64,000 bases of DNA, from positions 1,674,001 through 1,738,000 of the forward strand of contig NZ_LT629695.1 of assembly GCF_900099705.1 (NCBI RefSeq), in the 5' to 3' direction. Every line of letters starts with the position of its first letter. Positions within the stretch are counted from its first letter, which is position 1. This document shows positions 49,582 through 62,522 of this stretch, in pieces. The notes beneath the pieces were generated by a model. It had not been told where the DNA came from. It worked only from the letters and a program-made list of their open reading frames with translations, and did no database searches. This DNA comes from Agrococcus jejuensis (lineage in GTDB: Bacteria > Actinomycetota > Actinomycetes > Actinomycetales > Microbacteriaceae). The translations under genes were made by a program, and so were the position numbers.

Positions 49582-51180
49582 TCAGCCCACCGGGCGGTCG
49601 CGCAGCGTCCCCTCCTCCACGGTCCAGCGGCGCGTGACGCCGACGTCGGCGAGGAAGCGCTCGTCGTGGCTCACCACCACGAGCGCGCCCTCGAAGCCGG
49701 CGAGCGCCTCGACGAGGTGGCCGATGGCGTCGACGTCGAGGTCGTTCGTCGGCTCGTCGAGCAGCAGCAGTCGCGGTGCGGGATCCGCGAGCAGCAGCCG
49801 GGCGAGCGCCAGGCGCAGGCGCTCGCCGCCCGAGAGCCCCGCCGCGAGGCGGGCGCCGTCGTCGCCGCGGAACAGGAACCGGGCCAGCATCGCCCGCGCG
49901 GCGTGCGGCGTCGCATCCGGATTCGCCTGCCGCAGCACCTCGACGAGCGTCGCGGACGCGTCGACGTCGGTGCGCTGCGCGAGCACGCCGACCTCGGGGA
50001 TGCGGTGCAGCACGGGCGCGACGGGCGCGCGATCGGGCGACGCCGGCCACGCCTGGATGGCGCGCAGCAGCGTCGTCTTGCCCGAGCCGTTGCGCCCCGC
50101 GAGCGCGATGCGCTCGGGGCCGCGCACGACGATGCGCCCGTCGGCGCCGCCGAGCTCGAGCACCGTCGTGCCATTCGGCACGCGCGTCTCGGGCATCGGC
50201 ACGCGGATCGAGCGGTCGTCGCGCACCGACTCCTCGGCCGAGGCGATCGCGGCGAGCGCGGTCGCCTCGCGACTCTGATGCAGTCGCCTGCTGGCCGCGG
50301 TCGACGCCTCCGACTGGTTCTTCAGCGCGTTGACCATGATGCGCGGGATGCCGCCCGCCGCCTGCTTGCGGCGACCGGCCGCCTCCGCCTGCTGTCGCCG
50401 CTCGTGCGCCTCGATGCGGTCGGCGCGCTCGCGGCGGTGGTGCGCCTCCGCATCCTGCAGGCGCCTGCGGGCGGCGACTTGCTCGGCGGCGATCGCCTGC
50501 TCGTACGTCGACCACGGGCCGTCGAACGTGCGCAGCTCGCGCCCGTGGACCTCGGCGATGCGGTCGACGTGCTCGAGCAGCGCACGGTCGTGGCTCGCGA
50601 CGACGAGCGTGCCCGGCCAGTCGCGGATCGCCGCGACGAGGTCGGCGCGCGCGTCGGCGTCGAGGTTGTTCGACGGCTCGTCGAGCAGCGCGATCGGCGC
50701 TCCCGACAGGCGGATGCCGGCGAGGCCGACGCGGATCGCCTCGCCGCCCGACAGGCTGCGCATCGGGCGGTCGAGCAGCGACTCGTCACCCTCGACGCCG
50801 GCCGCGGCGAGCGCGGCGAGCGCCTCGGCATCCACGCCCCAGCGGTCGCCGACGGCGTCGAAGCGAGCGGGGTCGACGTCGCCGCGCTCGATCGCGGCGA
50901 TGGCCGCGCGCACGGTGGCGATGCCGAGCGCATCCGCGACGGAGCCGGGATGCGACGGCAGCGACTGCGGCAGCGTTGCCGCCGCGCCGGAGCGGGTGAT
51001 GGTGCCGATCGTGGGATCGAGGTCGCCGGCGATGAGCCGGAGCAGCGTCGTCTTGCCGGTGCCGTTGCGGCCGACGAGGCCGGTGGCGCCTGGGCCGAAC
51101 GTGCCGGAGACGTCGTCGAGCGCGACGGTGCCGTCAGGCCAGACGACGGAGACGTGGGTGAGCTGGATGGTCGAAGACAC
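49582..51180 (-). CDS. ABC-F family ATPase
   Basis: A 532-residue protein of two ABC ATPase domains without membrane helices. First Walker [15 protein letters not shown] (about 34-47) and signature [11 protein letters not shown], second Walker [15 protein letters not shown] and signature [16 protein letters not shown]; both Walker B segments ([20 protein letters not shown]) keep the Glu. A ~80-residue basic linker ([25 protein letters not shown]) separates them; it is the part that reaches the ribosomal P/E site. ABC-F proteins act on the ribosome, some giving resistance to macrolides, lincosamides or pleuromutilins. The GTG follows GGAGG. The leader has a short ORF and hairpin, favouring a resistance-type role. 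Confidence 0.9.
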
Positions 51181-51203
51181 GGTGTCCTCCTGGGCGCGGG
51201 ATG

Positions 51204-51247
51204 GCGCGCTGAGGACCGATGCGGTGCGTGGGCCGCTCTCAGCGCGC
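51204..51247 (-). promoter_or_regulatory. Putative attenuator hairpin in the ABC-F leader
   Basis: GCGCGCTGAG (51204-51213) and CTCAGCGCGC (51238-51247) form a perfect 10-bp stem with a 24-nt loop, starting 14 bp upstream of the ABC-F ribosome-binding site. One arm covers the last codons and stop of the leader ORF, so ribosome position would decide whether it forms. Confidence 0.55.
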
Positions 51248-51277
51248 GATGGTCGCGGCGCGGAGGATCTCCGTCAT
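51239..51277 (-). CDS. Leader peptide upstream of the ABC-F gene
   Basis: A 12-codon ORF reading [12 protein letters not shown], preceded by GAGAG. It lies 58 bp before the ABC-F start, within a leader that would begin near 51329 if the TATCGT -10 (minus strand, 51341-51336) is used. Many antibiotic-resistance ABC-F genes are controlled by ribosome stalling on such a peptide. No ribosome profiling or homologue comparison is available, so the call is tentative. Confidence 0.5.
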
Positions 51278-51379
51278 GCTCTCGTCTTCGTCTCGTGCTG
51301 CGTCCGCGCTCTCACCGCGGACCGATCGGGTGGCGACGATACCCGTTGGGCGCGGTCGGCGCCAGGGTGCGGGCGCGCC

Positions 51380-51517
51380 GACTGGTCACGTTCGGCAGAT
51401 GACTGGTCGCAGTTGCACCACGCTGGTCGCAATCTCGGTGCAATGGTGACCAGTCCCCGTGCATCTCTGACCAGTCGGGGTGCAACTGTGACCAGTCACC
51501 GCCATGAGTGACCAGTC
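51380..51517. repeat. Array of seven GTGACCAGTC repeats with 20-21-bp period
   Basis: Copies on the minus strand start at 51380, 51401 and 51421 (GACTGGTCAC, GACTGGTCGC, CGCTGGTCGC); copies on the plus strand start at 51446, 51467, 51488 and 51508 (GTGACCAGTC or CTGACCAGTC). The spacing is 21, 20 / 21, 21, 20 bp, and spacers often contain GGTGCA. The two sets diverge from a 15-bp centre. The array fills most of the 371-bp gap 51181-51551 not taken by the ABC-F leader. Confidence 0.75.
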
Positions 51518-51551
51518 GGGTGCAGGCGGATGCGCGCGACGGGCGCGCCGG

Positions 51552-51998
51552 TCAGGTGAGCAGCGACATGCCCGTGCGGGCGGGGGCGACGTCCTCGAAG
51601 CCGTGCGCCTCGTAGAGGCGGCGGCCGGGAGGGTCGGCCGTGAGCGTCACGTAGGCGCCGGGCTCGGCGCGCTCGCGGATCTCGGCGAGCAGCGACCGCA
51701 GCACGGCCTTGCCGATGCCGCGTCCCTGGTGCTCGGGCAGCGTCGCCATGTCGGCGACGAGGAAGTACCAGCCGCCGTCGCCGATCACACGGCCCATCGC
51801 CACGGCCTCGCCTGCGCCGCCATCCGCATCCGCGTCGAGTCGGATCGTGCGCCACGTCCACGTGCCCGCGATCGCACCTTCGGCCTGGCCCTCGCTCTTC
51901 GGCGACAGCCCCGACACGGCGCGGAGCCGCCGGTACTCGTCGACGGTGGGCGGCTCGAGCAGCATGCGGTAGCCGGGGGCGAGGGATGCGTCGGTCAC
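51552..51998 (-). CDS. GNAT family N-acetyltransferase
   Basis: A 148-residue acetyltransferase. The acetyl-CoA site is MATLPEHQGRGIGKAVLRSLL, and RRLYEAHGFEDVAP is the typical C-terminal motif. The substrate is unknown. GTG at 51998 lies 6 nt after TACCGT (minus strand, 52010-52005), consistent with a leaderless mRNA. It is divergent from the methyltransferase gene. Confidence 0.88.
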   Translation of the reverse strand: MTDASLAPGYRMLLEPPTVDEYRRLRAVSGLSPKSEGQAEGAIAGTWTWRTIRLDADADGGAGEAVAMGRVIGDGGWYFLVADMATLPEHQGRGIGKAVLRSLLAEIRERAEPGAYVTLTADPPGRRLYEAHGFEDVAPARTGMSLLT

Positions 51999-62425: not shown

Positions 62426-62522
62426 GAGGGGTCACGTGTTGCCACGTTGCGCGGCGTGTCGCGGCAGCAGGTGACCCCTCTTCGCACGGACGTGACCACT
62501 CAGCGGCAGGAAGTGACCCATC
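62426..62522. repeat. Second array of GTGACCnnTC repeats with 21-bp period
   Basis: Plus-strand copies GTGACCCCTC (62471), GTGACCACTC (62492) and GTGACCCATC (62513) are exactly 21 bp apart; one minus-strand copy (GAGGGGTCAC, 62426-62435) faces away across a 35-bp centre. The organisation parallels 51380-51517. It lies in the 288-bp gap 62401-62688; a TAGCGT -10 candidate for the HAD gene is at 62607-62612. Confidence 0.7.

Follow-up and report, generated by a model that had tools for sequence, protein, structure and literature searches.

The array and its locus

The window analyzed here is a 64,000-nucleotide stretch of the 3.4-Mb chromosome of Agrococcus jejuensis (genome G000), and the element under study is an array of short phased repeats at 51380-51517. 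It sits in the gap downstream of a GNAT gene (51552-51998, minus strand; assigned by Pfam) and upstream of an ABC-F gene (49582-51180, minus strand). An earlier note on this DNA had described seven phased cores, minus-strand copies on the left and plus-strand copies on the right, and all seven were located: four plus cores and three minus cores, two of the latter clean and the third degenerate. The GGTGCA motif that it had reported is likewise present in several spacers. Same-strand steps are 21 bp on the left and 21, 21, and 20 bp on the right, with a step of 46 bp from minus to plus across the centre. The parts of the array are as follows.

51380-51517: complete array, of family A (spacer GGTGCAACTG), with minus units to the left of the 55-bp dyad and plus units to its right
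51380-51388, minus strand: outer minus core, GACTGGTCA
51401-51409, minus strand: second minus core, GACTGGTCG, with one mismatch to the ten-base core
51421-51429, minus strand: third minus core, CGCTGGTCG, degenerate and within the loop of the centre
51401-51455: central dyad of 55 bp; arms 51401-51419 and 51437-51455 (16 of 19 positions complementary), 17-bp loop 51420-51436
51447-51455, plus strand: plus core 1, TGACCAGTC
51468-51476, plus strand: plus core 2, TGACCAGTC, preceded by C instead of G
51489-51497, plus strand: plus core 3, TGACCAGTC
51509-51517, plus strand: plus core 4, TGACCAGTC

A repeat class dispersed over the chromosome

The pattern GTGACCNNTC occurs 178 times in the A. 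jejuensis genome against 16 occurrences of the reversed pattern, paired cores number 64 against 3 in the control, and the 55-bp dyad pattern is found 41 times against none for its reversed control, so the array is not a product of chance. The unit thus recurs genome-wide, which bears out the proposal of a new repeat class in the earlier note. When paired cores were collapsed, 32 loci remained; a looser screen of selected stretches gave 42 arrays. The arrays are intergenic, and the six that overlap a called gene end do so by 2 to 13 bases. Their cores (TGACCNNTC) proceed outward from the centre at 20-21 bp, and the centre is usually a 55-bp dyad with a 46-bp core-to-core step and 19-bp arms flanking a 17-bp loop. 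Same-strand steps across the 42 arrays were 20 bp (50 times), 21 bp (69 times), and 22 bp (nine times), with a single step of 71 bp. Among 148 units, core positions 2, 4, 5, and 8 (G, C, C, and T) are nearly invariant and positions 3 and 9 (A and C) strongly conserved, while the spacers vary. Beyond the innermost pair, mirror units have a similarity of 0.576 (a small sample of 15 pairs) and non-mirror units one of 0.555 (118 pairs). As mirror units are no more alike than others, the outer units have the character of direct repeats and not of hairpin arms. Together with the genome-wide recurrence of the unit, this makes a putative multimeric protein-binding site, as the earlier note had suggested, plausible.

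Two main families were distinguished in A. jejuensis, with smaller types alongside. Family A has arms GGTGCAACTG and an extra core inside the loop, and family B has arms CGGCAGGAAG and a loop with CGACACGCCG. Once the copies are oriented by their loops, the extra minus units of B lie mostly on one side and the extra plus units of A mostly on the other, as judged by eye and from the consensus. Of 33 arrays from A. jejuensis and two sister species, 31 could be assigned to A or B, and the other two share fewer than three words with any set. A second array in the window, which had escaped the earlier note, belongs to family B (core of the TGACCCCTC type, loop with CGGCGTGTCG) and lies at 62426-62522 between two plus-strand genes.

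Three composite arrays were observed in A. jejuensis (1279815-1280123, 1886224-1886524, and 1888549-1888817), each with an A-type dyad beside an ACGAG-type array, as if one had been inserted next to the other.

Some arrays bracket a gene for an AbiEi-Vsr nuclease

In several genomes a single gene of the DUF559 family splits the minus half of an array from the plus half. The encoded protein joins an AbiEi-like N-terminal half to a C-terminal nuclease resembling Vsr and I-Bth0305I (Pfam DUF559/MTES_1575), with a Vsr-like catalytic fold; DUF559 scores above the Pfam cut-off in three of four copies and MTES_1575 below it in all four. Two of the seven PF04480 matches in A. jejuensis are bracketed in this way, referred to as copies A and B. 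Six of 290 called genes in selected stretches are bracketed on both sides, and two of these encode the AbiEi-Vsr nuclease.

One copy of the gene lies near polA. This neighborhood was read directly in G001, G006, G021/HG114, and G008, and the remaining orthologues were assigned by identity; G021 and Agrococcus sp. HG114 look identical and were counted as one genome. Arrays with a 20-bp period are present on both sides in 13 of the 16 orthologues. In G015, where the locus is cut, an array lies on one side and none in the remaining ~0.5 kb on the other; the arrays are degenerate in G008, and none is clear in G018. The core of the brackets near polA depends on the species and is TGACC, GGCGCC, or TGGCC. 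The same array layout was found in Sinomonas, another genus of the same order, where an open copy of the nuclease gene is bracketed too. Seven other Sinomonas arrays, two of them in the same genome as the bracketed copy, share 13-31 9-mers with the brackets, compared with 0.06 for the control. A further nuclease paralogue in G009 (L463, contig 11, ~395 kb) has two GTGGCCAATC repeats, on one side only.

Array families tend to change with the nuclease

The window array shares 38 9-mers with the brackets of copy A and one with those of copy B, and a random control stretch shares none. For the second window array the numbers are reversed in kind, with 27 9-mers shared with B and one with A. This measure, 9-mers shared with the bracket arrays of both copies, was applied in three species, A. 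jejuensis and two sister species (G009 and G023). The test covered 16 A. jejuensis sites (site 11, itself a bracket array, was excluded) and 12 of those in the sisters; sister rows were used if they had an array-sized interval (30-250 bp), and sites 8, 12, and 15 were omitted. Own-species brackets were the best match for all 16 A. jejuensis arrays and for 10 of 15 sister arrays, two of the ten being ties, as G009 and G023 have almost identical B brackets. The A or B type is constant at each of the ten sites represented in two or more species, with no switches.

The nuclease itself has diverged faster where the families changed. Pairwise identities of protein A in the three species, each of which has a bracket type of its own, are 68, 57, and 55%. 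For protein B, the identity is 90% between G009 and G023, whose arrays are of one family, and 67-68% between either of them and A. jejuensis, whose arrays are of another. The proteins neighboring the nuclease are about 90-99% identical. Eight residue positions separate the core types, but they are not interpretable, since there are effectively two TGACC sequences.

The flanks of 17 A. jejuensis sites were sought in both sister species. Eight of 14 comparable sites in G009 hold an array (2, 5, 6, 7, 9, 10, 13, and 14), four are without one (1, 3, 16, and 17), and sites 12 and 15 are filled by other DNA. The corresponding numbers for G023 are seven of 12 (1, 2, 3, 7, 10, 13, and 14), three without an array (5, 9, and 17), and two filled by other DNA (6 and 12). 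About half of the compared sites are thus still array-bearing, and the family often differs, one having been replaced by another in place. The filled B sites of the sisters (G009 2, 5, 6, 7, 9, and 10; G023 2, 7, and 10) have cores of the TGCCC type; the 46-bp step is unchanged, and the CGACACGCCG/CGGCGTGTCG loop motif is present, in part only at G009 site 5. Seven more A. jejuensis arrays (the window array and those at 545, 546, 548, 1279, 1870, and 1874 kb) are matched in place in G009, in segments selected for having arrays there. The window array is therefore not unique to the strain, a possibility that the earlier note had raised; the orthologous site in G023 holds only a remnant. At L389 and L384, orthologues of the A. 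jejuensis site 1948379, a longer and different dispersed palindromic repeat, CTGGTCGAGGAGG...CTCCTCGACCAG, takes the place of the array.

A proposed partnership resembling REPINs and RAYTs

As described in excerpts of two papers (PMC3116915, PMC3733652), REPINs are short, inverted extragenic elements that occur in many copies close to the 3′ ends of genes, with matching elements at the gene of an enzyme, RAYT, and element-enzyme co-evolution has been proposed; the dedicated enzymes of such REP-like repeats are there Y1 transposases. The Agrococcus arrays are likewise inverted multicopy extragenic elements near gene 3′ ends, and they too have matching elements beside a dedicated enzyme gene, with AbiEi-Vsr in the place of RAYT. 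They differ in the unit, a 20-21-bp direct repeat around TGACCNNTC, and in the enzyme. A Y1 transposase (PF01797) was found in none of 24 Agrococcus genomes (5 of 14 control genomes were positive), and the arrays are for this reason not members of the REPIN/RAYT system. The GTAG/CGTC tag ending the palindrome is absent from the A and B dyads and from the unit consensus; the letters GTAG do lie inside the arms of three other A. jejuensis dyads and of the TGCCC-type dyads in G009 and G023.

Based on these results, the array is probably the dispersed, non-coding part of a REPIN/RAYT-like partnership with another enzyme, the AbiEi-Vsr nuclease. Such a system would have two parts, the nuclease gene bracketed by inverted arrays of 20-21-bp repeats and scattered solo, intergenic arrays of the same families. 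The AbiEi-like half may bind the units, one molecule after another being added from the central dyad outward along the same face of the DNA, and the nuclease may act at the arrays, which would be spread and refreshed by break repair or transposition. A bolder version, which we offer tentatively as it is possible but doubtful, holds that AbiEi-Vsr is a homing-type nuclease that reads its own repeats and, as its specificity shifts, rewrites its cognate arrays chromosome-wide through cleavage and templated repair. Dozens of sites would then evolve with one gene, in a new selfish or domesticated class of element.

That the dispersed arrays tend to vary in step with the repeats bracketing the enzyme gene suggests a new kind of partnership in bacterial chromosomes. 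Repeats of the REP type are widespread among bacteria, which raises the question of how they are copied and stay alike. If the partnership holds, a different class of enzyme with its own array families, together with sister species that show parallel changes in array and protein, would allow the concerted evolution of dispersed repeats to be tested directly. Part of the nuclease family now labeled DUF559 would also gain a candidate function. Among the matches listed in a search of the open-access literature, there was no account of such arrays or of a link to DUF559.

Several observations weigh against this partnership. Five of the seven PF04480 matches in A. jejuensis are not bracketed, and no arrays were seen in the stretches around 18 other family members. 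The nuclease copy of G006 is broken, yet its arrays persist, and the A copy of G023 shows clear periodicity on one side only. Five of the 15 sister arrays best match the brackets of another species; the window site of G009, for example, is nearer to the A brackets of A. jejuensis (21 9-mers) than to its own (14). Site 1 of G023 holds a B-like array, although B is elsewhere of the TGCCC type in that species. The dispersed arrays of G015, G017, and G022 are TGACC but their bracket arrays GGCGCC; in these genomes the dispersed arrays are relics, or else the pairing does not hold. In 200-kb samples of G012 and G019, arrays of period 20/21 were found only at the nuclease gene, less than one array being expected in samples of this size at 5-10 arrays per genome. 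Finally, neither a target-site duplication nor a clean boundary was seen at sites that are empty in a relative.

Known systems with related proteins differ in arrangement. Compared with Vsr-like homing endonucleases such as I-Bth0305I, the AbiEi-Vsr gene is distinguished by its position among housekeeping genes, outside any intron, and by flanking repeat arrays of a kind found at other places too. In contrast to the AbiEi antitoxins of type IV toxin-antitoxin systems, the AbiEi-like part is here fused to a nuclease, and the repeats flank the gene on both sides and are dispersed as well. No Pfam match to an AbiEii-like toxin was obtained among eight neighbors of four copies (E 1e-5).

Alternative explanations

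The arrays could instead be sites of a DNA-organizing or regulatory protein of the host, the nuclease gene merely happening to lie between two of them. We consider this unlikely, though helical phasing and intergenic, dispersed positions fit it, and no matching bracketed nuclease gene was found for the TGACC arrays of G015, G017, and G022. The distribution along the chromosome also agrees with it, as the quarter closest to the terminus contains one of the 32 loci (binomial p 0.001, rising to 0.03 once the loci are collapsed to 19 clusters). A host protein would not lead one to expect the patchy abundance in the genus, where paired TGACC cores range from 0 to 103 per genome in 24 Agrococcus genomes, or families that track the nuclease brackets in three species as well as the divergence of the nuclease. 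As to the chromosome map, the window holds at 557-12600 genes that look, from their N-termini, like dnaA, dnaN, recF, gyrB, and gyrA, and because of these genes the origin probably lies there; array loci tend to avoid the region of the terminus, a bias that is weak after clustering.

An RNA element, in which the transcribed array forms a long hairpin and thereby terminates or protects transcripts, a role that has been proposed for REP elements, appears improbable. The earlier note had remarked that the two halves could fold on each other in RNA, and folding of the window array is indeed strong for either strand (z of -8.3 and -8.6). Such folding need not be its function. The outer mirror units are not more complementary than others; a search for hairpin co-variation found no support past the innermost pair, with 15 pairs available. 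The arrays do lie near stop codons, and convergent gaps are commoner among those with an array (15 of 42) than among those without (13 of 92), but eight of the 42 array-bearing gaps are divergent. No intrinsic terminator, a GC stem followed by a T tract, was found at 51100-51700 of the window, and the best match to an Rfam family reached 24.5 bits against a gathering cut-off of 150. Pairing alone would also leave the replacement of many copies by one new sequence unexplained.

That the arrays are non-autonomous ends (MITE, miniature inverted-repeat transposable element) of a conventional transposon such as IS21 is very improbable. The ends of IS21-family elements carry several repeats each, at least two, inverted between the ends (excerpts of PMC11208146), and the Agrococcus arrays also have several repeats per side in inverted arrangement. 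Their dyad loops occur in both orientations in A. jejuensis (11 and 10 in A, six and four in B, and five unassigned), a point in favor of this reading. Against this, A. jejuensis has no near-full-length IstB, within the genus only G019 has one, the four IstB loci examined lack exact cores and have unlike ends, and no target duplication was seen.

The window array lies between the GNAT and ABC-F genes, and the earlier note had suggested a cis-element for the latter, but a local regulatory role for either gene can practically be dismissed, because dozens of copies adjoin unrelated genes and the array is separated from ABC-F by another, conserved stretch. In a survey of 77 neighboring proteins (one neighbor of >2.4 kb excluded), the commonest of the first 25 Pfam families listed was MFS_1, with six members, and DUF559 occurred twice. 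The stretch directly upstream of ABC-F, 51181-51370, is conserved in G009 and G023, contains an inverted repeat (51201-51213 and 51238-51250), and may be a regulatory leader of that gene, distinct from the array.

Related repeats in other organisms

Plasmid and phage collections gave no match to the arrays, and a scan of viral contigs returned 19 candidate stretches. A scan of named genomes returned at least 118 stretches with the motif, of which 34, picked by name, were examined for arrays. Matches in Nocardioides, Streptomyces, Knoellia, Agromyces, and others were set aside as possible chance tandem repeats containing the motif. Isolated 55-bp palindromes with GANNGGTC termini were seen in other genera of the order (L301-L320; G175, G054, G269, G290, G090, and G069), up to nine per genome and with arms that differ between genomes. 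In Dyadobacter fermentans (L171:4939-5235), an array with minus units on the left and plus units on the right proceeds in 20-bp steps around TGACCATTC.
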